Source of the DNA: Candidatus Aenigmatarchaeota archaeon
GTDB lineage: Archaea > Aenigmatarchaeota > Aenigmatarchaeia > QMZS01
DNA: 35,711 bases
Direction of reading: 5' to 3'
Assembly (NCBI GenBank): GCA_023134135.1
Contig: JAGLVB010000010.1
Coordinates: forward strand, 1 to 35,711
Numbering within the stretch: position 1 is the first letter of the stretch; each line of letters begins with the position of its first letter. This document shows, one piece after another, positions 6,286-35,105 of this stretch. The position numbers were made by a program, and so were the translations under genes. The notes below the pieces were generated by a model. That model searched no databases. It saw nothing but the letters and a program-made list of their open reading frames with translations, and was not told where the DNA came from.

Positions 6286-6501
6286 TTATCTTAAATCATA
6301 ATCAAGTATTATATTTGTAGCAATCTCCTGCAAATAACACCCATTACAGGAATCTCTCTGACAAAGATATTCTGGAGAATAGGGCTCAAGACCTAATTTC
6401 TCCATACGTTCATTTACTCTCCTAATTAAAGGGCATATATCTCCTTTTATATTATTTAGCTTGATTAAATCTTTTTTAAACCTCAAAATACTTCCTGACA
6501 A
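6286..6501 (-). CDS. Small cysteine-containing protein overlapping the CCA-enzyme gene
   Basis: A 71-residue protein I do not recognise. It has C23 followed by Pro and a C-terminal cluster C47, C52, C55 (CQRDSCNGC) that could bind zinc or an iron-sulfur cluster; the cysteine-bearing end looks constrained. The ATG at 6499-6501 overlaps the end of the CCA enzyme by 26 bases in another frame, so the two are probably one mRNA and translationally coupled. A later start at Met33 would shorten it but keep the cluster. A link to tRNA metabolism is possible from the coupling only. Confidence 0.55.
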   Translation of the reverse strand: MSGSILRFKKDLIKLNNIKGDICPLIRRVNERMEKLGLEPYSPEYLCQRDSCNGCYLQEIATNIILDYDLR

Positions 6502-7825
6502 GGTGAGAATTGAATTCTTTGTTCTTATTTACCACCTCAATAATCTCTTCCTCTTTCATCAATTTTATTTTTTTCTCTGCGATTCTCTCTGGGATTTCTT
6601 TCCTGTTTTCTTTAAGGAAATGTTTTAACACAGTTTCAATATTCAGGAATTTCCTTTTTGAACCAACAAAAAATTTGTTATCCTCAATATAAGGTTTATA
6701 CTCATCATCCAGATATTTTCTTAAAAAATTATCAATTTCTTTTGAAAATATTGAAGGACCTTCCTGTTTTTTTAATTTTGACAGCAGTTTATTCTCAACT
6801 TCAAAAATAATATAAACAACATTGGTTTCGTCTGTCCATTCTAAATACCTAACCACTGAAAAATCATATTCCTTCAGATAATTTGCAATTCGTTTGCTTA
6901 ATTTTCTTATCTGAGGATATAAATTTTCTGGAATCATCTCAGGAGGGGTAAATTTAATTCCAATAAAATTTGTACCTCTCTTATCTTTTAGTTTTTTTAT
7001 GAGCATATTCCTTGCTGGTTTTTTAAACTTTGGAAATCTTCCTGTTTTCAGATATTTTTTTGCTTCTAGTTTTAACCTAAGGAAATTTTGAGGGGAAATT
7101 GGAGAACCAACATTCCTATTTTTATCCACAGGATCTATCACAACCAAAGCATCAGCAAATCTCTTTTTTGCTTCTTTCTCAGTTACCTGATTTTCCAAAT
7201 CTATTAATTCAGCAAAATTTAATTTTGAAAGTCCTTTCATTGTATTTGCAAAAGTCCCGTAATTTAAAACCAAAAGTTCGCAAAGATATCCGCTCAATCC
7301 ATTGTGTTTTGCATCAGCGCCATATACATCAATCTGCTTGCAGAAATATTTAAACAATCTCGCATGATCCATTCCATACCCGACCAGTTTTTCTTTTATG
7401 TACTTTGTATGGTGCGGGGACCTGTCAACAGCGGATATTATTTTATCACCTCTCCCGGTTTCATAACAAGGCACAATATCAATCTCAAAATTTTTAACTT
7501 TCACTCTCACATAAGGATGCTCCGCATATTTTATATTATAAATTCCTTTCATATCTTCGCAAATTGAGGTCCCAATTAATAAACCATATTCCTCTAATTT
7601 CTCTCTTGAAACCTTCTTCCTGAAAACAATGAATAAATCCACATCATGGTCCTTGCTCAACCAGGTGTCTTTTGATATTGAACCCACAATTTGGGGATAA
7701 GCGTAAAAAGGCTTTGCAACTATTTTTGCAACCTCAAGTAATTTAACGACAAATTCTTCAACAACCTCTTTTTCAGATTTACAGGGTTTTATCTTTCTTA
7801 GAATAGCCAATTCTTTTTGGTTCAT
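6476..7825 (-). CDS. cca: CCA-adding tRNA nucleotidyltransferase (archaeal class I)
   Basis: A 449-residue enzyme that adds CCA to tRNA 3' ends. The nucleotidyltransferase signature is clear: G48-S49 (IVGSISKDTW) and the metal ligands D61 and D63 (DHDVDLFIVF), with the third carboxylate D116 in EIDIVPCYE. The central part (DRSPHHTKYI, HNGLSGYLCELLVLNYG) matches the archaeal class I central and body domains, and the rest forms the body and tail. Length is typical (about 430-460). The need is visible here: tRNA-Val at 2554-2658 has no encoded CCA. The gene overlaps the small Cys-rich gene downstream. Confidence 0.93.
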   Translation of the reverse strand: MNQKELAILRKIKPCKSEKEVVEEFVVKLLEVAKIVAKPFYAYPQIVGSISKDTWLSKDHDVDLFIVFRKKVSREKLEEYGLLIGTSICEDMKGIYNIKYAEHPYVRVKVKNFEIDIVPCYETGRGDKIISAVDRSPHHTKYIKEKLVGYGMDHARLFKYFCKQIDVYGADAKHNGLSGYLCELLVLNYGTFANTMKGLSKLNFAELIDLENQVTEKEAKKRFADALVVIDPVDKNRNVGSPISPQNFLRLKLEAKKYLKTGRFPKFKKPARNMLIKKLKDKRGTNFIGIKFTPPEMIPENLYPQIRKLSKRIANYLKEYDFSVVRYLEWTDETNVVYIIFEVENKLLSKLKKQEGPSIFSKEIDNFLRKYLDDEYKPYIEDNKFFVGSKRKFLNIETVLKHFLKENRKEIPERIAEKKIKLMKEEEIIEVVNKNKEFNSHLVRKYFEV

Positions 7826-7934
7826 AATGTTTATTTACTTTGTTTTATTTTAAGAGTTTCTATTTATTATTTTACATTCTATATTATGAATTTGCAGAAA
7901 AAGTCAGAAACAAGTGAATTCATGGTCAAATAAT

Positions 7935-8522
7935 ATGTTTTATATATTGGATATTCAGGAAAAAGTTGGTGTGGAAGCCCAAAACTTAAAAGGAGATACT
8001 ACAGAGAGCATTAAAGAGAGATTAGAAGAAGCCCATTTAAAGGAAGAAAATGGTGTATTCCTTGGCGTCACCGAGATAAAAAAACTTGGGGAAACTGGGG
8101 TAATATTGCCTGAAAAACCTTATATTTATTTTGATGTGGAATATTCCGCATTATTTTTCCAGCCAGTTCCTAATGAAATGGTTGATGGATATGTCACTGA
8201 AGTTGCTGAATTCGGACCATTTATCAGAATAGGTCCTGTGGATGCTTTAGTTCACATCTCCCAGATTACTCAGGAAAAATTAATCTATAACCCTGAACAG
8301 GATATTCTTGCGAGCAAAGATTCAAATATTGTTGTAAAAGATGGTGAACTTGTAAGAGCCATGGTCGCAAACACCTCAATTTCCGATGAAAGAACCAGAA
8401 TAAACCTTACAATGAAACAGGATGGTCTTGGATTAACTAAATTATTGAAAAAAAAGCCTGCACCGAAAACGGAAAAGAAAACAGAGGATAAAAAGGAAAA
8501 AGTTAAAAAAGAGAAGAAATAA
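7935..8522 (+). CDS. rpo7: RNA polymerase subunit Rpo7 (RpoE')
   Basis: The 195-residue stalk subunit of archaeal RNA polymerase, which pairs with Rpo4, aids open-complex formation and binds emerging RNA. The N-terminal RNP-like domain (FYILDIQEKVGV to about 75) is followed by an S1/OB domain (about 80-165; DGYVTEVAEFGPFIRIGPVDALVHISQ). I use the ATG at 7935 because Rpo7 proteins start at this strand; the frame opens with a GTG at 7914. The last 25 residues are almost only Lys, Glu, Thr and Pro, an extension not usual in the family. Rpo4 is not nearby. It shares its strand with the mevalonate genes but probably not their promoter. Confidence 0.9.
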   Translation: MFYILDIQEKVGVEAQNLKGDTTESIKERLEEAHLKEENGVFLGVTEIKKLGETGVILPEKPYIYFDVEYSALFFQPVPNEMVDGYVTEVAEFGPFIRIGPVDALVHISQITQEKLIYNPEQDILASKDSNIVVKDGELVRAMVANTSISDERTRINLTMKQDGLGLTKLLKKKPAPKTEKKTEDKKEKVKKEKK

Positions 8523-24830: not shown

Positions 24831-26081
24831 ATGGTATTCTCATCAATAGGTTATTTTGGAATATTTGATATTGTCCAGTTGTTCTGCTATTTCATAATGG
24901 TCTATTGTTCGATTTTATGGTTCGTTGTTTTTATTAAAAATCATTACAAATTTTTTGTTGACAAACCTATAAAAAATTATCCTTCAGTCACGTTTCTTAT
25001 CCCGGCTTATAATGAAAAAAAGTTCCTTTCCAAATGCCTAAATTCAGTTTTAAATCTTGATTATCCAAAAAATAAACTGAAAATTATCTGCATAAATGAC
25101 GGGTCCACAGATGAAACTTCTGAAATATGCAAAAATATAAAAAACCGCAGAGTGTTGGTTATTAACAAAAAAAATACAGGGAAAGCAGACTCGCTTAACA
25201 TAGCTCTAAAATTGGTTGACAGTGAATTTGTTGTATCTATGGATGCGGATTCTTTTCCAAGAAAAAATTATCTGAAAAAAATAATTGGTCATTTTGATGA
25301 CAAAGATATTGCGGCTATTTCTCCGGCTATGAAAATTAACAAACCGCAAACAATTATGCAGCAAATACAATGGGTGGAATATATCTTTTCAATTTATCTG
25401 AGGAAATTATTTGCAATATTTGACTGTCAATATGTCCTCCCCGGTCCGGGCTCTATTTACAGAACAGATAAACTTAAAGAAATTGGGGGGTGGGATAAAA
25501 ACAGTCTTGTGGAAGACACTGAACTGGCTTTCAGAATGTATGAAAAAGGGTATAAAATTGAAAATTGTATAAACGCGTATGTTGACACAGAAGCCCCTGA
25601 AAAATTTAAAGAATTATTTCAACAGAGGGTTAGATGGTATAGAGGATATTTGCAGACCACATTCCAATATAAACATTTACTTGGAAATTCAAAATATGGA
25701 AATCTTGGTCTATTCATACTGCCGATTAATTTTGTATGGATTTTTATTCTTGGATTTTTATTCTTTATGCCTTTGTATATGTTGCTTAAAGACTTTTCTG
25801 AGTACCTGCATATTCTGTCTCTGGTTGGTTTTGAATGGTCTCCTTTAATATTTAATTTTGACATCCTATATGTAAGTTCCTATAATTATTTTTTTGTATT
25901 GTTCTTCCTGATGGGTATAACAACAATACTCCTGAGTTTATATACTTCGGGCGAGAAAATAGATTTTAAAACAAAAAAAATATTCTATTTCGGGTATTTA
26001 TTTATTTACCCTTTCCTGTATTCTACATTCTGGATTGCGGCTGTAGTATACGAAATATTTAAAATAGATAATAAATGGTAA
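24831..26081 (+). CDS. Membrane glycosyltransferase family 2, processive type
   Basis: A 416-residue polysaccharide synthase-like enzyme. One or two N-terminal membrane helices (about 12-40) precede the GT2 domain (about 52-285). It has SVTFLIPAYNE, INDGSTDE (D90), the DAD metal motif (138-140), VED (228-229) and the QxxRW motif (265-269, QQRVRW). This set marks processive family 2 enzymes such as cellulose, hyaluronan or poly-N-acetylglucosamine synthases. Further membrane helices follow (about 290-315, 345-375, 390-412). It overlaps the next gene by 7 bases, so it is coupled to the thioredoxin-like protein. It may build a surface polysaccharide or extend a lipid-linked glycan. Confidence 0.88.
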   Translation: MVFSSIGYFGIFDIVQLFCYFIMVYCSILWFVVFIKNHYKFFVDKPIKNYPSVTFLIPAYNEKKFLSKCLNSVLNLDYPKNKLKIICINDGSTDETSEICKNIKNRRVLVINKKNTGKADSLNIALKLVDSEFVVSMDADSFPRKNYLKKIIGHFDDKDIAAISPAMKINKPQTIMQQIQWVEYIFSIYLRKLFAIFDCQYVLPGPGSIYRTDKLKEIGGWDKNSLVEDTELAFRMYEKGYKIENCINAYVDTEAPEKFKELFQQRVRWYRGYLQTTFQYKHLLGNSKYGNLGLFILPINFVWIFILGFLFFMPLYMLLKDFSEYLHILSLVGFEWSPLIFNFDILYVSSYNYFFVLFFLMGITTILLSLYTSGEKIDFKTKKIFYFGYLFIYPFLYSTFWIAAVVYEIFKIDNKW

Positions 26082-26743
26082 AGAGAAAAATAGACGCGCA
26101 ATTGTACATCATAGTATTCTTCATAACCATTTCAATATTCGTTGCGGGTCTTTTTCTTGGAAGTGTTCTCAGTAAAAACAAATTAAGCAGTTTATCTGAG
26201 GATCTGGAATCTCTTGAGAGAATGAGGAATACGCAGGAAACAAATAGCCTGTTATTGGATTCTCTTGATGAAAAAATATGTTTGGGTCTTGAATCTTACA
26301 TTAATGATATGTTGCCTGAAATAGAGAATCTTGCGGAAAGAGTTGCTTATTATGAACGCAGCGCTGACAGCAAAAGATTTGGAATTAAAGAATATGAAGA
26401 TATCAAAAAAGATTATAACTTATTGTTAATCAGATATTGGATAATAACAAATAAGCTGGAAAAAAATTGCGATGAAAATATTGTGGATATTATTTATTTT
26501 TATTCCAACAAAAAATGCGATGACTGCAAAGACCAGGGTATTTATCTTGACAGTATAAAAAAACAATATCCTGAAATTATGATATTTGCTTTAGATAAAG
26601 ATTTAAACCTATCCACCATTGAGATTCTGGCAAAGTCATTTAATATAACAGAAGTTCCTTCTTTAATAATTAATGGAAAAAATTATTCCGGATTAAAGAA
26701 TAAAGAAAAAATAATAGAATTGATTGCTCCTGAATCTAAATAA
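26075..26743 (+). CDS. Membrane-anchored thioredoxin-like protein
   Basis: A 222-residue protein. A membrane helix (about 10-31, YIIVFFITISIFVAGLFLG) is followed by a long helical, coiled-coil-like segment (about 36-130) and a C-terminal thioredoxin fold (about 135-222). The fold carries a CDDC pair (C148, C151) after the first strand (VDIIYFYSN) and the conserved cis-proline P195 in EVPSLIING. The domain should face outside the cell and act as a thiol oxidoreductase. CDDC is not the usual CGPC or CPHC. The gene overlaps the glycosyltransferase by 7 bases, so they are co-translated. A role in folding or redox repair of cell-surface proteins is an inference. Confidence 0.78.
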   Translation: MVKRKIDAQLYIIVFFITISIFVAGLFLGSVLSKNKLSSLSEDLESLERMRNTQETNSLLLDSLDEKICLGLESYINDMLPEIENLAERVAYYERSADSKRFGIKEYEDIKKDYNLLLIRYWIITNKLEKNCDENIVDIIYFYSNKKCDDCKDQGIYLDSIKKQYPEIMIFALDKDLNLSTIEILAKSFNITEVPSLIINGKNYSGLKNKEKIIELIAPESK

Positions 26744-26744
26744 A

Positions 26745-28106
26745 CTAATTGACTCTATATATAAATATTTCCTGATTACAATCCCCTTCTATTTTTTTGA
26801 CTAAAGATAACCTTTCATGGACGTCCAATAGATTTTTATTATATTCCATCCCAACAAGGGAATTATAAGCAAAATATTGCGGGTTATATATATTTATCAT
26901 ATTTGTGATATTCTTATCCCAAGTGCTTGAAACAGAAGTATTAAGATAATAACCCAACCAAGGCCAGTAATTGCTAATTATGACCTGAGGTTTTTCTTCA
27001 AGAGAATTAAAATATTGAACTGAATTTAAAATACTGCTATTGGAATCGCAATTATTTTCTAAATTTATATTGATAAGACCAAAGAATAAAAAAACACTGC
27101 CTGATAAAATAAGGACTAATGAGAGAATTTTAAAATTAAATTTCTTTAAAACCCGTCTTTCACTCAGCCAAAGCAAACCAGAATAACTGATTAAATACAG
27201 GAAGGGTAAGAAAACAATATAATATCTGGCTAATTTCATATTTACAAAAAACAGATAATAAACCAAAGAGATAACTACATAAGAAACAATTAAATATTCT
27301 TTGTGTTTAGTCAAAAAAATTAATCCAAAGGGCAGGAAAAAAATTAGCAACCCGAGCGTTAAAAATAAGTTGTTTAATTGCAATGTTGCTGGTTGATTAA
27401 TTGTATAATCCGCAACTATTTTGTACTGTTCCTTGAAATCCCAAATAATGTCATCATAGGTTATATAATTATAACCTACCCAGGGCAATAAAGCCAATAG
27501 AACAAATGAAGTAAACAAGATAAATCCTTTATAATCTTTTTTTAGGACAAATTCAATAAATACCGCCAAAGCAAACAAAGCCACAGTAAACCTGGATAAA
27601 AAAGCCAATGCAAAAAAAGCGCCTGAAATGGAAATAAACGCAAATTTTCCGGATTCTCTGTATTTAAGAAAACTCAAAAAAGACAATAATAAAAACATAA
27701 GCGCCGGGACATCTGTATAAACCCTAAAACCCCAAAGAATAAATTGCGATGAAATGGAAAATAAAAAGGTTATTAGAAGGGAATGGTTTATAGAAAAAAA
27801 TTCCCTTGAAATTAGATAAAAAACAAACACGGTTAACAAACTCATTAAAATAACAACAAACCTGGCTGCAAAAATACTTTCTCCGGTAAAATACCAAACA
27901 AAAGCAATTATATATTCTAAAAAAGGGTATCTGAAATCTTCTACAAAATTACTCCCTCCCAGATGATTTCTTGCATTTCCAAGATAAGCGCATTCATCCC
28001 ATAGAAGAACTGGGTTTAAATAGTTAAATGACAAAAAAACTACTAACAGAAAAATCATTAAAGAAGACAGTAAATATAATTCCTTTCTGGTTTGTATCAG
28101 CTTCAT
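26745..28106 (-). CDS. Glycosyltransferase family 39-like membrane protein
   Basis: A 453-residue polytopic enzyme of the PMT/ArnT type, which transfers sugars from polyprenyl-phosphate donors. About ten or more membrane helices are visible. The first outer loop carries the catalytic Asp-Glu pair (D37, E38 in LLWDECAYLGNARNH), the hallmark of family 39. RYPFLEYIIAFVWYFTGES resembles the family's loop near helix 2, and the C-terminal soluble part is short. It converges with the thioredoxin-like gene (1 base apart) and diverges from the dolichyl-phosphate-sugar synthase-like gene, whose product could provide its donor. It probably decorates surface proteins or lipids. Confidence 0.82.
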   Translation of the reverse strand: MKLIQTRKELYLLSSLMIFLLVVFLSFNYLNPVLLWDECAYLGNARNHLGGSNFVEDFRYPFLEYIIAFVWYFTGESIFAARFVVILMSLLTVFVFYLISREFFSINHSLLITFLFSISSQFILWGFRVYTDVPALMFLLLSFLSFLKYRESGKFAFISISGAFFALAFLSRFTVALFALAVFIEFVLKKDYKGFILFTSFVLLALLPWVGYNYITYDDIIWDFKEQYKIVADYTINQPATLQLNNLFLTLGLLIFFLPFGLIFLTKHKEYLIVSYVVISLVYYLFFVNMKLARYYIVFLPFLYLISYSGLLWLSERRVLKKFNFKILSLVLILSGSVFLFFGLININLENNCDSNSSILNSVQYFNSLEEKPQVIISNYWPWLGYYLNTSVSSTWDKNITNMINIYNPQYFAYNSLVGMEYNKNLLDVHERLSLVKKIEGDCNQEIFIYRVN

Positions 28107-28160
28107 AAAAAACCATATAGAAAATTAAGTTATATTCTAAAACAATCAAAAGAATCTATT

Positions 28161-28856
28161 ATGAAGTTTACGCTAATAATTCCTACTTACAATGAAGGAA
28201 AAATTATTGAAAAATCAATTTTAAAACTGGAAAATTTTCTTGAAAAAAACAAAATAAATGCTGAAGTAATTATTTCTGATGGAGGTAGCCTAGATAATAC
28301 CCTGAAAAAATCAAAAACACTAAAAAAAAGATATGCCTCTCTGGAAATAATTGAAAGAAATAATCGAACTGGAAAAGGCAAGAGTATTGAAGAAGCAATA
28401 AAAAAATCAAAATCGAATTTTATCGTGTTTATGGATGCGGATTTATCTGTTAACTTGGATAATCTGCCAAAAATAATCAATTATCTAAAACAGGATTATG
28501 ATATTGCAATTGGATCAAGATTTGATAAAAACAGTGAAGTAAAAAGAAAATTTACAAGAAAAGTTATTTCGTCTGTTTATTCTTGTATGATTCAGGGTTT
28601 ATTTGGATTAAAAATAAAAGATTATCAATGTGGATTTAAAGGATTTAATCGCAAAAAAATAATGCCTCTTTTGGATAAAATTGAAAATAAAGGTTTTTTC
28701 TGGGATACTGAATTAATAATCAAGGCTAATGCGAAAGGATTAAAAATTAAAGAATTTGGGGTGCAGTGGGAAGAAACCAGAAACTCAAGTATAAATATTC
28801 TTGCCACAAGCCTGAGTTTCCTAAAATCCATCATATGGTTAAGATTAAGGATTTGA
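28161..28856 (+). CDS. Dolichyl-phosphate mannosyltransferase-like GT2 enzyme
   Basis: A 231-residue soluble glycosyltransferase of the DPM1/Alg5 type. It has FTLIIPTYNEG at the N-terminus, SDGGSLDNT (D40), FMDADLS with metal motif DAD (92-94), IAIGSRFD, YQCGFKGFNR and WDTELIIKA. Such enzymes move a sugar from a nucleotide donor to dolichyl phosphate on the cytoplasmic side. I start at the ATG at 28161 rather than 28092, since the family begins right at this strand and a TATA-like box lies at 28125-28136. The membrane gene at 28859 follows after 2 bases. Together they match the two halves of Haloferax AglD. Confidence 0.87.
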   Translation: MKFTLIIPTYNEGKIIEKSILKLENFLEKNKINAEVIISDGGSLDNTLKKSKTLKKRYASLEIIERNNRTGKGKSIEEAIKKSKSNFIVFMDADLSVNLDNLPKIINYLKQDYDIAIGSRFDKNSEVKRKFTRKVISSVYSCMIQGLFGLKIKDYQCGFKGFNRKKIMPLLDKIENKGFFWDTELIIKANAKGLKIKEFGVQWEETRNSSINILATSLSFLKSIIWLRLRI

Positions 28857-28858
28857 AG

Positions 28859-29791
28859 ATGAAATATTCTAAATTAATTGGATTGTTTGGTATTGGATTA
28901 TTTATCTATCTGATATCTTTTATAAACCTTGAATTACTCGTGGATTCTTTTAAAAATTTGGATATTATTTATTTATTAATTTCATTTTCATTTATAATAT
29001 CTGGAGTTCTGATAAAATCATTAAAATGGCGTCTAATAATCAACAAAAATGACAGACTATCAATGAAAACTACAATTATCGCATGGATTTCCGGTTTTGG
29101 TGTTGGATTAATAACCCCCGCCAAATTAGGTGAACTTGTTAGAGCAAAATTCCTGAAATCAAAACCAGGAATATCCATACTTACTGTTTTGGTTGACAGG
29201 TTTAATGATATTCTTGTTCTTTTTCTTATTGGGATTTTCGCAGTGTTTGTACTATTCTCAAAGAAGTCCGCACTATTTAACTTAAGTTACTTGTTCATTT
29301 TGTTTTTTGTTTTCTTCATCATTGGGGTCTTTATTTTAAAAAGTGAAAAAACAGTTAAAAAAATAGGAAGACCTTTTTATAAATTTTTGGTTCCGGAAAA
29401 ATTCAAGAACTTTGCAGGAGAAAATATTAATTTATTTTACAAAAACTTTAAAAAAATGAATAAAAATAAAATTTTTGTTAATTTTCTGTTGGCAATTTTT
29501 GCCTGGTTTATTTGTTTTGCCCAGTATTGGTTTTTAGCCTGCGCATTTGGATTAGATATATCCTATTTTCTTATTTGTTTAATTACACCAATCCTGATTC
29601 TTGTTCAGTTAATTCCGATCTCCGTTTCAGGAATTGGCACAAGAGAAGCAGCAGCTGTTTTAATTCTGTCAAATTTTGGAATATCTCCTGAACTTGCAAT
29701 TGCCTTCTCACTTGGAATCTTAATTGAAGATTTCATTCTTGGGGGTACTGGGTTAATTATTTTGTTCTTCTCAACTAAAGAACTAAATTAA
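28859..29791 (+). CDS. UPF0104 / AglD-type integral membrane protein
   Basis: A 310-residue protein with about eight membrane helices. It has the UPF0104 (lysylphosphatidylglycerol synthase membrane region) motifs: SLKWRLII near 50, GFGVGLITPAKLGELVRAKFL split over about 82-102, VDRFNDILVL near 122, and the C-terminal PISVSGIGTREAAAV near 250-265. In Haloferax AglD this region is fused behind a GT2 domain and is needed for adding the last mannose of the S-layer glycan; here the two parts are separate, adjacent genes. Flippase-like activity has been proposed for the family. The ATG at 28859 follows the GT2 stop by 2 bases, with a weak AAGGA site before it. Confidence 0.85.
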   Translation: MKYSKLIGLFGIGLFIYLISFINLELLVDSFKNLDIIYLLISFSFIISGVLIKSLKWRLIINKNDRLSMKTTIIAWISGFGVGLITPAKLGELVRAKFLKSKPGISILTVLVDRFNDILVLFLIGIFAVFVLFSKKSALFNLSYLFILFFVFFIIGVFILKSEKTVKKIGRPFYKFLVPEKFKNFAGENINLFYKNFKKMNKNKIFVNFLLAIFAWFICFAQYWFLACAFGLDISYFLICLITPILILVQLIPISVSGIGTREAAAVLILSNFGISPELAIAFSLGILIEDFILGGTGLIILFFSTKELN

Positions 29792-29856
29792 AAAAATAAA
29801 ATTTATAGAAATAAAAAAGATTAAAAAATCTTTTTGGATTTAATTGACCTTACCGG
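29788..29856. repeat. R0: third, diverged copy of the S-layer terminator repeat
   Basis: This stretch aligns with the first 80-90 bases of repeats R1 and R2: the AAAATTTATAGAAAT block, the A-rich run, the GATT/AATC terminator hairpin, GGATT and ACCTTAC. It has several substitutions and about a 10-base deletion. The S-layer coding tail present in R1 and R2 is not recognisable here. It lies directly downstream of the HEPN gene at 29883. Confidence 0.7.
29814..29835. terminator. AT-rich bidirectional terminator hairpin (R0)
   Basis: AAAAAGATT and AATCTTTTT pair across an AAAA loop, with T runs on both strands. It sits between the convergent genes ending at 29791 and 29883 and can stop transcription from both sides. 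Confidence 0.6.
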
Positions 29857-29882
29857 GATTGGTTAAAATAGGTTTATATCGA

Positions 29883-30440
29883 TTACAGTTTCTTAACTTC
29901 TTCTATTATCTGTTCTATCAGATTTTCGTCTACTTCTTCCGAAACAAGTTTTATTTTTGTTACAAATTGTCTTGCATAGTCCATTATTAGTTCGCTTTCT
30001 CTATAACTTGTAAATATTCCATATTGCGCTTTTTCCCTTGTCTGTTTTACTTTCCAGAAAAAATTCAGGTATTTCTCACTTATATTTAATTGCTCTATTT
30101 TGTCTTTTTTATATTTGAGTTCATCAAATTTTTTGAGAAGTAAAAAAAGTTTATCTTTAAAAAAGTATTCTAATACAGCAACTGTCGCTGCATGCTCTTT
30201 ACTTTCTAATCCTAATCTCATAATGAGAGAAGTTGCGGCATGATACATGGCATAATAAGCGGTTATTATAACCCAATCGGTGTGTTTTAATTTACTTAAA
30301 TCAGACATAACAATTAAATTGTGGTCTGCTTTATCCATATGCGCTTTAGCAAGAGAAATATTTGGTTTTGTTATTCTCAATCCCCTCACGCCTTTCTTTT
30401 CTCTTTCCAAAGCTTTTCTTATAATATCCTGAACTTTCAT
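29883..30440 (-). CDS. HEPN-domain protein, partner of MNT (module 1)
   Basis: A 185-residue helical HEPN-family protein, probably the toxin (RNase-like) of a HEPN/MNT toxin-antitoxin pair. The long helix pair is typical: AYYAMYHAATSLIMRLGLES followed by KEHAATVAVL. In the place of the catalytic Rx4-6H motif I read R135-EKAQ-Y140, so the canonical histidine is absent, as in UPF0332-type members; cutting activity is therefore uncertain. Its start overlaps the MNT gene by 4 bases (ATG inside the upstream stop), so translation is coupled. It is homologous to the HEPN protein at 31306-31776: same WV-(I/A)-x-T-x-YY block, same R-x4-Y. Confidence 0.8.
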   Translation of the reverse strand: MKVQDIIRKALEREKKGVRGLRITKPNISLAKAHMDKADHNLIVMSDLSKLKHTDWVIITAYYAMYHAATSLIMRLGLESKEHAATVAVLEYFFKDKLFLLLKKFDELKYKKDKIEQLNISEKYLNFFWKVKQTREKAQYGIFTSYRESELIMDYARQFVTKIKLVSEEVDENLIEQIIEEVKKL

Positions 30441-31021
30441 TTTTGATACATAATATCCACAAACTTTTTGGTTCCTGTAAAAATAATATGGTTTTCTTTT
30501 ACCTCTTTAATTAATTCACCGTCTTTCTGTTTTAAAAATTCATTTTTTGTTAGTTGAATTGCAGAAAGTTCTTTTCCATACAAAGAATAAATTTCCTTTA
30601 TTTCTTTTTCCAAGTTTATTTTTCTCTCTGTTAAAATAAATAAATCTATGTCGCTGTCTTTCTTTGCGATTCCTTTTGCATAAGAGCCAAAAATAACACC
30701 AAAAATAACTTTATTTCTTATTTTCTCAAAAAAACCAGATAGAATTAGTTTTAGTTCTTTGTTTTTCACAAAAAAATGTTCTCTTTCTTCTATTTCCGAT
30801 AAAGTTAATAAAACACTTGTTTTTTCATTTTTAAAGTTTAGCGAGCATAGAATCGCTTTCCCTATTTTATTTTCTAAAATCACCTGTTCTTTAATAAGTT
30901 CATGCACTTTTTTATTTATAAAAGAATAGGCTTTATTAGTTCCTCTGGAAATTTCATTTATTGTATATTCTCTATTAAAATTTCTTGCCAGGAACAATAT
31001 TATGTTTTGTTTTGTTTTCAT
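30437..31021 (-). CDS. Winged-helix plus MNT nucleotidyltransferase antitoxin (module 1)
   Basis: A 194-residue protein with an N-terminal winged helix (about 5-62; NREYTINEISRGTNKAYSFI) and a minimal nucleotidyltransferase domain (about 85-190). The domain shows G112-S113 (GVIFGSYAKG) and the metal pair D124, D126 (DSDIDLFIL). MNT proteins paired with HEPN partners act as antitoxins; in MntA/HepT systems they add AMP to a HEPN tyrosine. The DNA-binding domain suggests autoregulation, and a GATAATATTATC palindrome with repeated ATTATCTCTTT lies right before the start (31022-31053). It overlaps the HEPN gene by 4 bases. Confidence 0.82.
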   Translation of the reverse strand: MKTKQNIILFLARNFNREYTINEISRGTNKAYSFINKKVHELIKEQVILENKIGKAILCSLNFKNEKTSVLLTLSEIEEREHFFVKNKELKLILSGFFEKIRNKVIFGVIFGSYAKGIAKKDSDIDLFILTERKINLEKEIKEIYSLYGKELSAIQLTKNEFLKQKDGELIKEVKENHIIFTGTKKFVDIMYQK

Positions 31022-31053
31022 ATTATCTCTTTATGTGATAATATTATCTCTTT
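31022..31053. promoter_or_regulatory. Probable autoregulatory operator of MNT module 1
   Basis: ATTATCTCTTT occurs twice (31022-31032, 31043-31053), and GATAATATTATC (31037-31048) is a perfect palindrome between them. The block lies between the TATA-like stretch (about 31056-31070 on the minus strand) and the ATG at 31019-31021, the right place for repression by the gene's own winged-helix product. Confidence 0.5.
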
Positions 31054-31145
31054 TTAAGATATATATAACCTTTATTAGTTGAATTTGTCAAATAGAAGTA
31101 AAATTAATTGTTAAAAATATAAAATTTATAGAAATTAAAAAAAAT

Positions 31146-31169
31146 AAAAAAGATTAAAAAATCTTTTTT
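31146..31169. terminator. AT-rich terminator hairpin (R1)
   Basis: AAAAAAGATT and AATCTTTTTT pair across AAAA. By position it ends the MNT-HEPN module 2 transcript, although it is a copy of the S-layer terminator. Confidence 0.6.
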
Positions 31170-31195
31170 TGGATTAGATGTACCTTACTTAGTAA

Positions 31196-31295
31196 TTACT
31201 CGAGAGCAGTTACTTCGAAAGGAGTTGCAGTTCCAGATACTTTTACGCCGGTTCCTGTTAAAGCATGTGTATCATACTGTTGTAATACGCTACAA
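31196..31295 (-). pseudogene. S-layer gene 3' fragment
   Basis: This copy of the last 32 codons and stop of the S-layer gene (ends TPFEVTALE) has no start of its own and no 5' part. It is intact at base level, so the duplication is recent or kept alike by gene conversion. It would be transcribed as the 3' tail of the HEPN mRNA. Confidence 0.9.
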
Positions 31296-31305
31296 TTACT
31301 CTCAC

Positions 31306-31776
31306 TCATTCCAAAATCGTCTTCAAAGAAGCTCTTATAATCTGTACTTTACTCTCCGTTAAACCATCTATTAACTCTTTTATTTCCAAAATAAAATTTC
31401 TTAATTTTTTCAAATCTGTTGATATTGGTAAATTTTTCAAATAATATTGATTTTCTATCCTTAACTTCTTATCATCTTCCAGCATTGCGCTTACATTTTT
31501 TCTTATAAATCCGTGTTCTTCCAAATATCTTGCAAGTTCAATTGTGCAAGAATGAATCTCGGTTTTTACGCCAATTCTCATTAAGAACGCATAAAATGTA
31601 AAATATTCAACATAATATTTTGTTGTTGCCACCCACATTTTGGAATCAGTTTTTATTTTAGCCAACACCCTCAAACTCTCTTCCGCACTATTTAAATATT
31701 CTATTGCAAGATTTTCAGAGGGTTCTACTAATTTGATTCCTTTTTTCTGTTCCAGGCACCATTCCAATTTTTTCAT
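31306..31776 (-). CDS. HEPN-domain protein, partner of MNT (module 2)
   Basis: A 156-residue helical HEPN-family protein related to 29883-30440. The shared block is MWVATTKYYVEYFTFYAFLM, then RIGVKTEIHSCTIELARYL, where module 1 has RLGLESKEHAATVAVL. The family motif position reads R106-IENQ-Y111, again an R-x4-Y with Gln before Tyr and no Rx4-6H histidine. It lacks about 20 residues at each end relative to module 1. The start overlaps the MNT gene by 4 bases. The stop codon lies 10 bases before repeat R1, so its mRNA runs into the S-layer tail fragment and terminator. Confidence 0.78.
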   Translation of the reverse strand: MKKLEWCLEQKKGIKLVEPSENLAIEYLNSAEESLRVLAKIKTDSKMWVATTKYYVEYFTFYAFLMRIGVKTEIHSCTIELARYLEEHGFIRKNVSAMLEDDKKLRIENQYYLKNLPISTDLKKLRNFILEIKELIDGLTESKVQIIRASLKTILE

Positions 31777-32339
31777 TTTATAAGAAAAGTTACAAATAAA
31801 TCAGAATTATTTATCATAATATGTTTCTTTGCGATTTCCTGTATAAATGCCGGGGTTAAATTATCCATATTTGTTGGCACACTATGAATCTCAATCCCGT
31901 AAGTTAATGAAAAACTTTTTATTGTTTCTTTTAATTCTTTGTTATATTTTCCAACAATTAATAAATCCAAATCATTGCCTGTTAATTTCTCCGCAAAAGA
32001 TCCAAAAACCAGAAATGAGCTTTCAGAAAAAAATTTGGAAAATAGTTCGTGCAATCTTTTAAGAAGGGGGCTTTTAGCCATTAAATTATAAGTCTTTATC
32101 TTTTCAGAAATTGATAAATAATCATAAATGAAGGGATTCTTAAAATTTATTGAATAAATGGCATGTTTCTCCTTTTTTTCTGTTTTTAAGATTTTCTCAT
32201 TTGTAAGTTGTTTTAGATATTTTGATATCGTTTGGTGAGGTATTTTTAATTCTTTTTCAAAATCCGCCAATAATAGATTTCTTTTGTAATTTAAAAGATA
32301 AGGTAACAAAACATACCATATAGTAATCTTTCTTACCAT
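31773..32339 (-). CDS. Winged-helix plus MNT nucleotidyltransferase antitoxin (module 2)
   Basis: A 188-residue protein with an N-terminal winged helix (about 8-65; ADFEKELKIPHQTISKYLKQL) and an MNT domain with G113-S114 (LVFGSFAEKL) and D123, D125 (NDLDLLIVG). It is the predicted antitoxin and autoregulator of module 2, with the same gene order and 4-base overlap as module 1. Sequence identity with module 1 is low by eye, so the two modules are not a recent duplication of each other. The start lies 32 bases from repeat R2, so its promoter is squeezed between the S-layer terminator and the ATG. Confidence 0.8.
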   Translation of the reverse strand: MVRKITIWYVLLPYLLNYKRNLLLADFEKELKIPHQTISKYLKQLTNEKILKTEKKEKHAIYSINFKNPFIYDYLSISEKIKTYNLMAKSPLLKRLHELFSKFFSESSFLVFGSFAEKLTGNDLDLLIVGKYNKELKETIKSFSLTYGIEIHSVPTNMDNLTPAFIQEIAKKHIMINNSDLFVTFLIK

Positions 32340-32371
32340 AATTATTAATTTATAATATTAAATAGATATAA

Positions 32372-32556
32372 TTAAAAATATAAAATTTATAGAAATTAAA
32401 AAAAATAAAAAAGATTAAAAAATCTTTTTTTGGATTAGATGTACCTTACTTGGTAATTACTCGAGAGCAGTTACTTCGAAAGGAGTTGCAGTTCCAGATA
32501 CTTTTACGCCGGTTCCTGTTAAAGCATGTGTATCATACTGTTGTAATACGCTACAA
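32372..32556. repeat. R2: 185-bp direct repeat at the functional S-layer 3' end
   Basis: This is the partner of R1 (31111-31295). It includes the real S-layer stop codon (32457-32459), the last 32 codons and the terminator. Its inner border with the cassette is at 32371/32372, and its outer border is inside S-layer codon sequence at 32556/32557. Confidence 0.95.
32407..32430. terminator. S-layer gene terminator hairpin (R2)
   Basis: Ten-base arms AAAAAAGATT and AATCTTTTTT with an AAAA loop lie about 27 bases after the S-layer stop codon. The AT-only arms with T runs suit archaeal termination. Confidence 0.6.
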
Positions 32557-35105
32557 GCTGCGCCTGTGTTTGCGGCTTCCCAACCTGCGACTACGTATGC
32601 TACTTTACCGCCGCCAAAAGCGTTTTCCACGATTTTAACCATTGCTGCGTTCTCAGGCACTGTTGAATCTACTCCGTAAGTTGGATAACTTAAGCCAAGT
32701 ACGGCTGCTGTCAACCTGTTAACGGCAGGACCACCAATTATTATCATGTTTTTGTTGCCCTTTGCTGATTCAACTTCTGCGTCTGTGTCAAGTCTTGCAA
32801 TGTTGTCTTTTATTGGAACTACCTGTTCATATGTTACTGCTCCTTCTCCACCTGCTGTTGATACTTCTGAAGTAATTTCACTTACATAAACGTCTGCATA
32901 CATCTGTTCTTTTGGTATTGTTATTGTAAGCACATCCTGATCTCCATCCGTATTTAACAAGATATAGGTACCAAAGGTATCTACATAACCTGTTAAGTCC
33001 GTGTCATCAAAGCTCTGTGATACCGCCTCAGCATCTGAGAACCATGGCGCTTCAACCTGCATTTTGTCACTAACACCATCGTCGTCTGTTCCAATTATAA
33101 CTGCTTCTTTTGCATCACTGTTTGTTGCGTCTTCTTCCTCAACAATCAATAGACCTGCGTGTGTTTCTGCTGATGCAGTACCATTTTGATTAGCATCAAC
33201 AGCTATGTCTAATTCATTGTTCGTTGAACCATTAAATGTGTAATACACTTGTCCAACCAGAGCGGTTACAACACCAGCTGCAGAATCATATTCTACTGTA
33301 GCTATAGTTACATTATTTGTTGCTGCTACATAAGCTACTGAACCTGTTGGTAAAACTATAGTAGTATCTGCGGTTAGACCTGTTACAGTCACATCTTCTG
33401 TAAATGCTACTCTTTGGTCATATCCATGATACAATTCAATAAATGGATATACTGCTACACTTCCGGTTGTTTTATCTGCAATTGTTAGTGTGTCGGCTGA
33501 ATCATTGCATGTTACTGTAAATGTTTTTCCCTTGTATGTGAAGTCTTGTGCTGTTGGATCTGTATCTTTGTCATCCCAGTCTATAATATAGTCTCCAGTA
33601 AAGACATCTTTTATTGTTAAGTCAAGTACATCGCAGTCTGCATTGTTTACTGTCTTTATTTGTCCCATTGTAACATACTCGCCATTGGAGTTCAAAATCA
33701 GATATGATTCATCATCATCTATATTTGCGCCTTCCCACATAGCGACTACTTCTCCTTTTTCATCAGCCACAATCATATCATCTGTATCATCACCGTGGTC
33801 GTATGCAAATGGAAGTGTTGCGGTCTCGCCTCTTTCATCAGTGAGTTTCACGCCAAGTGCTGCTGAAGATTCTTTCAAAACTTCAATCTTTCTTCTTGAT
33901 GTATCTGAATCTGATTCGCTTTCTGACAAGTCAGGTCCGTTTTTAACATCTGCAAAAGTCACTTTGACTGTTCCAAATACCGGATCAACAAAACTGTCAC
34001 CTATAGCTAAATGATCCCTTTCATTGTCATCTGCTGTTACACGGATTTTTATCTGTGTAAGAACTCCAAGAGTTGCATCTGGCGTTAAATCAACAAGTGT
34101 GCCTTCTATACCTGTTTTTGAAGAACCTACTTTTACTTCATCACCATCCTTTAACCAGATTTCATCTGCGCCTAAACTTATCACAGCATCACCAAGTTTG
34201 CTCTCCAAACCATAGTAATTAACTGTATCAGCATATATCTCAAGACCTGCTATTGTTTTTGTTGAACCTTCTGCAACGGTTTTTGTTTCTGTTACTCCAT
34301 CATAAGTGATTTTTATTGACGCTTTTTCAGCACTTGTTACACCGGTTAGGGTTATTTCATAATCCTTTTCATTAAATGTTCCTGTCTTTACCTCCCCAGT
34401 ATCTTCAAATGCAACATCCAGCGCTCCGCCCAATAACTGCAGTTCATCATTATCTGTGCTTGAACCAACTGTATAATCTTTTCCAAACAGAGTAATCTTT
34501 TCTCCGACTGAATCAGATGCATTTATAGGCGTTGCCTCATCAAAGTCCACAACTAAATCATATATTGGTGTGCCTGTTGCAGTTCCCAAATCTATTATCA
34601 ATACAGGGTCATCTAAATCTGCACCGGAATCATCAAATATGAACTCGGCATGGTCTGTTGCTCCGATTTCGATTTTCTGTGAGTAATCATATTCTGTTCC
34701 GCCATCATCCTCAAAAGTGCCCTCTGCCAATATTGTTGGTAAATCATCTACAGTCATTTGTGTTACGCCACCATCAGCAAGTTCATCAAGCAAGTATATT
34801 CTATCTGCTCCGCTTGCTAAATCAGCGCTTTCTCCGGTCATAGTTGTTGTTGCAGCTCCTGCGGTTGTAACTGTTTTTGTTTCTCCTGGTTCTGCGCCTA
34901 ATCTAACAGCCACATTTATTGCACCTACAACATCTGCAGGGCTTGCGTCAGCTCCAACAACCATTAACATGTCTGTTGTGCCGTCTGTTATGAAAGGCGC
35001 TGGATATTCACTTAAGTCTGCTGCCATGGCTGGTGCCAACAAAGTAGCTCCTGTCATAACGGCTCCTATTAAACCTGCTCCTATTTTACTCAATATTTTT
35101 TGCAT
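32457..35105 (-). CDS. S-layer surface protein
   Basis: An 882-residue secreted protein that should form the cell's surface lattice. A signal peptide (GLIGAVMTGATLLAPAMAA, about 10-29) is followed by the S-layer N-terminal domain seen in methanococcal-type proteins (LMVVGADASPADVVGAINVA near 47-66). The matching C-terminal domain has NMIIIGGPAVNRLTAAVLG and GKVAYVVAGWEA. The middle is acidic and beta-rich with Ser/Thr/Asp runs. Five N-x-S/T sequons are visible (for example INASD, CNDSA, NNVTI, FNGST, QNGTA), fitting N-glycosylation by the glycan genes upstream. A strong GGTGAT ribosome site lies five bases before the ATG. The 3' end is duplicated at 31196-31295. Confidence 0.88.
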   Translation of the reverse strand: MQKILSKIGAGLIGAVMTGATLLAPAMAADLSEYPAPFITDGTTDMLMVVGADASPADVVGAINVAVRLGAEPGETKTVTTAGAATTTMTGESADLASGADRIYLLDELADGGVTQMTVDDLPTILAEGTFEDDGGTEYDYSQKIEIGATDHAEFIFDDSGADLDDPVLIIDLGTATGTPIYDLVVDFDEATPINASDSVGEKITLFGKDYTVGSSTDNDELQLLGGALDVAFEDTGEVKTGTFNEKDYEITLTGVTSAEKASIKITYDGVTETKTVAEGSTKTIAGLEIYADTVNYYGLESKLGDAVISLGADEIWLKDGDEVKVGSSKTGIEGTLVDLTPDATLGVLTQIKIRVTADDNERDHLAIGDSFVDPVFGTVKVTFADVKNGPDLSESESDSDTSRRKIEVLKESSAALGVKLTDERGETATLPFAYDHGDDTDDMIVADEKGEVVAMWEGANIDDDESYLILNSNGEYVTMGQIKTVNNADCDVLDLTIKDVFTGDYIIDWDDKDTDPTAQDFTYKGKTFTVTCNDSADTLTIADKTTGSVAVYPFIELYHGYDQRVAFTEDVTVTGLTADTTIVLPTGSVAYVAATNNVTIATVEYDSAAGVVTALVGQVYYTFNGSTNNELDIAVDANQNGTASAETHAGLLIVEEEDATNSDAKEAVIIGTDDDGVSDKMQVEAPWFSDAEAVSQSFDDTDLTGYVDTFGTYILLNTDGDQDVLTITIPKEQMYADVYVSEITSEVSTAGGEGAVTYEQVVPIKDNIARLDTDAEVESAKGNKNMIIIGGPAVNRLTAAVLGLSYPTYGVDSTVPENAAMVKIVENAFGGGKVAYVVAGWEAANTGAACSVLQQYDTHALTGTGVKVSGTATPFEVTALE

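Follow-up and report, generated by a model that had tools for sequence, protein, structure and literature searches.

Downstream of its S-layer gene, the genome of an uncultured archaeon of the Candidatus Aenigmatarchaeota carries two different MNT-HEPN gene pairs, one behind the other, and each pair is followed by a copy of the S-layer gene's own 3' end. The DNA studied here (the window, 35,711 nucleotides) is an entire contig, JAGLVB010000010.1, of an assembly that holds 985,619 bases in 31 contigs and is 73% complete; the comparison set comprised 60 genomes, the window's own genome (G000) included. Repeated additions at one place, each duplicating the tail of the S-layer gene, are the best reading of the arrangement, and the best explanation of both modules, to which we would give a probability of roughly 0.45, is homologous insertion of the "ends-in" type at this tail, with no integrase involved.

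Along the minus strand, the S-layer gene is followed by R2, module M2 (MNT2-HEPN2, 32339-31306), R1, module M1 (MNT1-HEPN1, 31021-29883) and R0, where R0, R1 and R2 are the three copies of the tail; an initial annotation of the sequence had given the same order. A gene of the LPG_synthase_TM family (LPG_TM) and a glycosyltransferase family 2 (GT2) gene, both on the plus strand, converge with this block. The features are listed below; G001 and G007 are two metagenome-assembled genomes of Candidatus Aenigmatarchaeota from the same genus.

32457-35105, minus strand: S-layer gene, 882 amino acids (aa) (PF05124 S_layer_C, E 7.8e-18); chimeric on comparison with other genomes
32372-32556, minus strand: R2, last 33 S-layer codons with 3' untranslated region (3'UTR) and terminator, in native position (homology to G001/G007 begins at 32360)
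31773-32339, minus strand: MNT2, winged helix-turn-helix-like N-terminus and nucleotidyltransferase with GS-X8-DLD; putative M2 antitoxin (weak Pfam and PADLOC matches)
31306-31776, minus strand: HEPN2, putative M2 toxin, overlapping MNT2 by 4 nucleotides (nt) (PF05168 scores of orthologs, alignment, AlphaFold 2 (AF2) model)
31196-31309, minus strand: putative open reading frame of 37 aa, six new residues and the S-layer tail (frame reading)
31111-31295, minus strand: R1, copy of S-layer tail and terminator, 184 of 185 positions identical to R2; its outer flank is the M1 upstream region, non-native
31022-31110, minus strand: M1 upstream region with a TATA-like stretch, the GATAATATTATC palindrome and repeated AAAGAGATAATAT, found by eye; possible promoter or operator
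30437-31021, minus strand: MNT1, nucleotidyltransferase with GS-X10-DID; putative M1 antitoxin (PF18765 E 2.6e-10, PF01909 E 5.3e-10, PDC-M05A E 1.1e-13)
29883-30440, minus strand: HEPN1, putative M1 toxin, overlapping MNT1 by 4 nt (PF05168 E 8.4e-9)
29786-29863, minus strand: R0, diverged copy of the S-layer 3'UTR and terminator only, hairpin intact, between the convergent HEPN1 and LPG_TM genes
28859-29791, plus strand: LPG_TM gene, second copy in the genome (PF03706 E 1.5e-37); absent here in G001/G007
28161-28856, plus strand: GT2 gene (PF00535); faces the S-layer terminator directly in G001/G007

Three copies of the S-layer gene end

R1 and R2 match over 185 nt with a single difference, A at 31191 against G at 32452, which lies in the 3'UTR, and the similarity breaks off abruptly at both ends. 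Each takes in the final 33 S-layer codons, a coding tail of 99 nt, together with the 3'UTR and terminator. The initial annotation had described a copy of the S-layer terminator behind each module; the copies are indeed there, but the description understates R1 and R2, which are copies of the end of the S-layer gene itself. The copy next to the S-layer gene, R2, keeps its native flank (32360-32371 matches G001 and G007), whereas the flank of R1 does not match; the spare copies R1 and R0 sit behind M2 and M1, respectively.

R0 lacks the coding part and matches the 3'UTR and terminator alone. A search of the whole assembly with R2 gave three matches, the last of them R0 (29788-29853, 78% identity with gaps, E 1.2e-12). 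A gap-tolerant local alignment refined its limits to 29786-29863; 68 of the 73 aligned positions agree and there are three indels, the 17 gap columns including one 2-nt and one 10-nt gap. That R0 is a diverged copy of the same block, as had been claimed, is borne out by this match and by the hairpin AAAAAGATT-N4-AATCTTTTT, which occurs without mismatch at exactly three sites of the assembly, R0, R1 and R2, all other sites needing two mismatches. A 23-nt element adjoining the hairpin also has three exact matches, the next one containing two mismatches. In alignment score R0 is nearest to R2 (99), followed by the tails of G007 (93.5) and G001 (89). The possibility that R0 is a generic terminator, which the initial annotation had itself raised, is ruled out: the perfect hairpin is confined to the three copies, and the next R-like match in the genome, from a relaxed search, has an E-value of 0.0035.

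Judged by divergence, R0 is clearly older than R1, since it differs from R2 at 5 of 73 positions and by three indels, as against 1 of 185 for R1. The view that the most diverged copy fits an age order holds in this sense for the repeats, but the divergence gives no date for the modules. Absolute dating of R0 was abandoned because R is strongly constrained, species differing at 3-4 of about 99 aligned columns, while the fourfold-degenerate sites of GT2 differ at about 38%.

At the junction of M2 and R1 the stop codon of HEPN2 overlaps an ATG by 4 nt (ATGA), which opens the 37-residue frame that closes with the S-layer tail; chance is sufficient to explain this overlap.

The corresponding site in related genomes

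G001 and G007 carry a full-length R at 90-91% identity, and a scan of genome contigs with an R pattern matched one contig each in G007 and G001 and nothing else (JAUVLW010000023.1 and QMZS01000011.1). At both sites (G001:C11 and G007:C5) the GT2 gene is followed by 154-168 nt and then the stop codon of the S-layer gene, with a single R in between and with no LPG_TM, M1 or M2. Apart from the R copies, neither site has anything corresponding to the stretch of the window between about 28861 and 32359, a difference of about 3.5 kb that may reflect stepwise arrival here or partial loss in the relatives. The LPG_TM gene at this place is a second copy, with a 67% identical paralog at G000:C5:45029-45928, and the 65-66% identical copies of G001, G004 and G007 sit at other places.

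The genus also contains a relative of M2. As a measure of distance, one test protein is 97% identical to that of the window genome in G004, 92% in G001 and 73% in G005; G004, the nearest of these by that protein, has no S-layer match. In G005 an ortholog of M2 (MNT 67%, HEPN 59-60%) lies downstream of the S-layer gene at a distance of about 1.5-2.4 kb, decayed by a stop codon in MNT and a shortened HEPN. It adjoins an LPG_TM gene of 62% identity and, at 6872-8192 of locus L091 (G005:C6), a gene for an AF2212-like antitoxin with a remnant that is PIN-like, so labelled by reading and not by profile.

Proposed insertion by ends-in recombination

A proximal copy left intact in its native flank, with a spare direct repeat behind the inserted module, is the pattern that an ends-in crossover typically leaves. 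Both R2-M2-R1 and R1-M1-R0 have this form, the target tract being duplicated at both ends with the S-layer frame intact, and the empty site is seen in G001:C11 and G007:C5, where LPG_TM is missing as well. The donor DNA would have joined an S-layer tail and terminator to an MNT-HEPN module, either as a circle or as another tail-carrying molecule; a single, Campbell-like crossover between this tail and the chromosomal one would rebuild the S-layer gene intact and leave the spare tail behind the module. A first event of this kind may have left R0 behind M1, with only the 3'UTR homology surviving, and a later one would have left R1, with its 99 nt of coding tail and its terminator, behind M2. The modules would then function between terminators active in both directions.

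The S-layer gene is itself, by comparison with other genomes, a chimera of same-genus ends and a middle resembling another genus. The outermost 50-residue blocks of the protein are 0.90-0.96 identical to G001 and G007, with about 0.2 in the middle; the middle (aa 91-690) shares 47% identity with that of G010, from another genus, and 41% with that of G046, as against about 20% with G001, G005 and G007. In the last 120 codons the identity to G001 and G007 at fourfold sites reaches 0.88-0.89, compared with 0.62-0.63 in the adjacent GT2 gene. Taken with the chimeric gene, this makes the tail look recombination-active.

Two distinct MNT-HEPN modules

The MNT proteins of M1 and M2 share 22% identity and the HEPN proteins 27% over 75 aa, which rules out that the modules are copies of one another, as the initial annotation had also concluded. 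Both are probably class II HEPN/MNT pairs of distinct kinds, with a putative role as toxin-antitoxin systems or in defence. In M1 a PF05168 HEPN protein stands beside an MNT protein of the NTP_transf_2/Polbeta type, both above the Pfam cut-offs. M2 belongs to the class by transitivity alone: HEPN2 has no Pfam match of its own while its orthologs match PF05168, and MNT2 stays below the NTP_transf_2 cut-off. The AF2 model of HEPN2, almost all helical with a predicted local distance difference test (pLDDT) value of 94, has HEPN proteins as its best matches in the PDB, AF0298 first at a Foldseek E-value of 0.006, with none reaching 0.001. Searched by sequence against solved structures, the HEPN2 alignment gave no match and MNT1 one weak match. 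The PADLOC candidate profile PDC-M05A matches MNT1 (E 1.1e-13) and MNT2 (E 2.5e-8) and none of the HEPN proteins, which suggests a candidate defence label for the two MNT proteins.

In the motifs, MNT1 has GSX10DID and MNT2 GSX8DLD, as compared with GSX10DXD in class II. RX4HXY, by which the class I HepT/MntA systems are recognized, is absent from HEPN1 and HEPN2, and both contain R-x4-Y; R-x4-Y without RX4H agrees with the class II pairs, whose toxin is described as having a conserved tyrosine and no RX4H, its activity being left open (PMC7641770).

No close homolog of M1 was found within the genus. The nearest homologs of MNT1, at 41-46% identity, belong to other families, none of them within 10 kb of an S-layer gene, and a scan of genome contigs with MNT1 found no relative; these distant homologs, the only instances of module 1 at unrelated sites, are not decisive for the idea of array growth. 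Upstream of MNT1, the GATAATATTATC palindrome and the repeated AAAGAGATAATAT, noticed by eye, make a candidate operator for the N-terminal DNA-binding part of the protein. M2-type modules in families f3 and f16 (L092, L094, L097 and L098) have close by them a homolog of the gene at 6476-7825 of the window, a putative CCA-adding enzyme.

HEPN/MNT modules behind other S-layer genes

An S-layer match is present in 50 of the 60 genomes, and one locus from each was surveyed, with either flank taken to 10 kb or to the end of the contig; two second matches (G012:C6, G024:C41) were left out, as was R1 itself, and 43 of the 50 loci had at least 4 kb of downstream sequence. With 44 HEPN, HepT and MNT seeds, modules were found in the first 4 kb downstream at six loci (G000 with its two modules, G005, G035 with a degenerate HepT, G047, G054 and G059), at none between 4 and 10 kb downstream, and at one within 10 kb upstream (G034). 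The types differ from locus to locus: PF05168 class II pairs, HepT, and in G059 a pair in which the second protein matches no Pfam family. This last pair (L148, G059:C22, 8722-9737) adjoins the S-layer gene on its downstream side and combines a MarR-like/MNT gene with one for a 145-aa protein, which may be a new HEPN-like partner.

Given the spans searched, six of seven loci within the first 4 kb corresponds to a binomial probability of 0.0018, or 0.006 without G000. For the loci detected by Pfam, four were seen (G000, G035, G047 and G054) where 0.54 are expected, a Poisson probability of 0.002, or 0.015 without G000; the expected density derives from 147 matches in 49.3 Mb (PF05168 114 and PF01934 33 in the 60 genomes), fragments and long frames of other than toxin-antitoxin type included. 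The enrichment of HEPN/MNT modules behind S-layer genes is suggestive, because the 4-kb cut was chosen after the data had been seen. In many genomes, homologs of the glycosylation genes of the window (24831-28856) are found again immediately behind the S-layer gene; the neighbourhood of S-layer and glycosylation genes is old.

In a check for tail duplication, some self-match was found at four of the 50 loci, long in G000 alone and of 26-45 nt in the other three; some self-match also occurs in 28 of 500 random windows. The tail duplication is unique to G000 among these loci, and a general process of array growth is therefore not demonstrated.

Alternatives to ends-in insertion

Several points weigh against insertion by ends-in crossover. 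The decayed M2 ortholog near the S-layer gene of G005 has no R copies beside it, and M2 may be an old resident; that M1 is old and M2 new is not established, the G005 copy pointing the opposite way. No circular form or donor was found. Viral carriage is unsupported: four scans of viral contigs, for MNT1, MNT2 and two R patterns, came back empty. The other 49 of the 50 S-layer loci examined show no tail duplication. The high fourfold identity of the tail could be explained by the codon bias of a highly expressed gene. As for the survey, its 4-kb limit was set post hoc, and its seeds included proteins from G000 and G059, two of the six loci.

The main rival draws on the same facts and reads the spare copies as stumps left by exchange of S-layer alleles. 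Two S-layer haplotypes of the population, one bearing M1 downstream and the other M2, would have been fused by such an exchange with one illegitimate junction, R1 being the stump of the replaced or donor gene and R0 that of an older exchange. R1 does begin at an arbitrary codon within the conserved C-terminal tract, the S-layer gene is chimeric with low silent divergence in its tail, and wherever the flank can be read, the genes just downstream of it vary within the genus (G000, G002, G003 and G005, with G001 and G007 alike). The crossovers of the foreign middle, however, fall inside the gene and not at R1, the near-identity of R1 and R2 would demand a very close donor, and the data used contain no second haplotype. 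We regard such a merger as possible, if rather unlikely.

Considerably less probable is a duplication of the terminators as such, a local event kept by selection to insulate the modules from strong S-layer transcription and from the convergent LPG_TM gene, whatever the origin of the modules. The perfect hairpin and the T-rich tracts on both strands in all three copies would suit this role, as would the position of R0 between convergent genes, but the 99 nt of S-layer coding sequence in R1 are unexpected in a duplicated terminator and the folding z-scores of the copies are weak (-1.9 to 0.1). A little more doubtful again is an artefact of assembly or strain mixture, in which the contig would join two variants through the 185-bp repeat. 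Repeats of this length are difficult for short reads, and the assembly is fragmented, with the window making up a whole contig; the M2-R1 junction, on the other hand, is not repeated, so mere repeat collapse cannot make it, and the argument leaves R0 and M1 untouched.

Site-specific integration, whether by an archaeal integrase at the 3' end of the gene or as integron cassettes, seems very unlikely. The attC sites of integrons carry the box consensus RYYYAAC or GTTRRRY, and neither box occurs in R0, R1 or R2 on either strand; no integron integrase (IntI) was seen among the open reading frames of the window, a reading made with no profile search aimed at IntI. Archaeal elements do insert in the 3' ends of protein genes (PMC6563490), and integrons are found in archaea, with attC sites reported for Aenigmatarchaeota (PMC9668308), but the units of 1.1-1.3 kb contain MNT and HEPN frames alone and no integrase, and the repeat measures 185 nt as against the 29-69 bp of the att sites of crenarchaeal elements (PMC6563490).

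The serial accretion that the initial annotation had proposed is partly supported. What had been observed is confirmed, and insertion next to the S-layer gene on repeated occasions gains support from R0, which is specific and older, from G001 and G007 without the insert, and from the HEPN/MNT modules of different types behind the S-layer gene at six of 50 loci. An array that grows with its oldest module pushed outward is not demonstrated, given the decayed M2 ortholog beside the S-layer gene of G005 and the lack of a close M1 homolog in the genus.

Comparison with known systems

The modules resemble the class II HEPN/MNT systems (PF05168/PF01909) in the two-gene MNT-HEPN order, in GS-X(8-10)-DXD and in R-x4-Y without RX4HXY; unlike those described, HEPN2 has no Pfam match and MNT2 carries GSX8DXD in place of GSX10DXD (PMC7641770). 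Multiple MNT and HEPN genes are clustered in archaea, but the pairs of the window differ from such clusters in being separated by a copy of the 3' end of a structural gene (PMC3710099). Comparable too are the VARTIG loci of Thermococcales and the polymorphic toxin systems, in which a surface-protein gene with a recombining part is accompanied by variable downstream genes, the latter carrying homologous C-terminal pieces in the polymorphic toxin systems (PMC8416519). Here, in contrast, no toxin domain is fused to the spare S-layer piece, and the variable part of the S-layer protein is the middle and not the C-terminus.

As in the elements integrated at the 3' ends of archaeal protein genes, the insert is flanked by direct repeats of the gene's 3' end, with the difference that it has no integrase, a far longer repeat and a cargo of two genes only (PMC6563490). 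The order-dependent accretion of small gene units in the integron cassette arrays of archaea (PMC9668308) recalls the array growth that the initial annotation had proposed; here, however, the R copies have no attC boxes and the window shows no IntI, for which no profile was run. Among the titles in the literature on HEPN/MNT, S-layer genes and Aenigmatarchaeota, none concerned modules stacked behind S-layer genes.

Implications

On a modest reading, the locus offers a relatively dated pair of insertions, with an older R0 and a young R1, in an uncultured archaeon whose relatives lack the insert. A much broader proposal, which we consider improbable, is that the S-layer tail is an integrase-free port: toxin-antitoxin pairs attached to such tails would move between Aenigmatarchaeota strains by homologous recombination, stack behind the restored tails and be kept by addiction even though the direct repeats permit their loss by pop-out. 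If insertion at the tail is the true explanation, a near-universal surface gene of one DPANN lineage (found in 50 of the 60 genomes) would double as a landing site for small conflict modules with no need of an integrase, and the variation of the cell surface would be linked to the gain of toxin-antitoxin genes.

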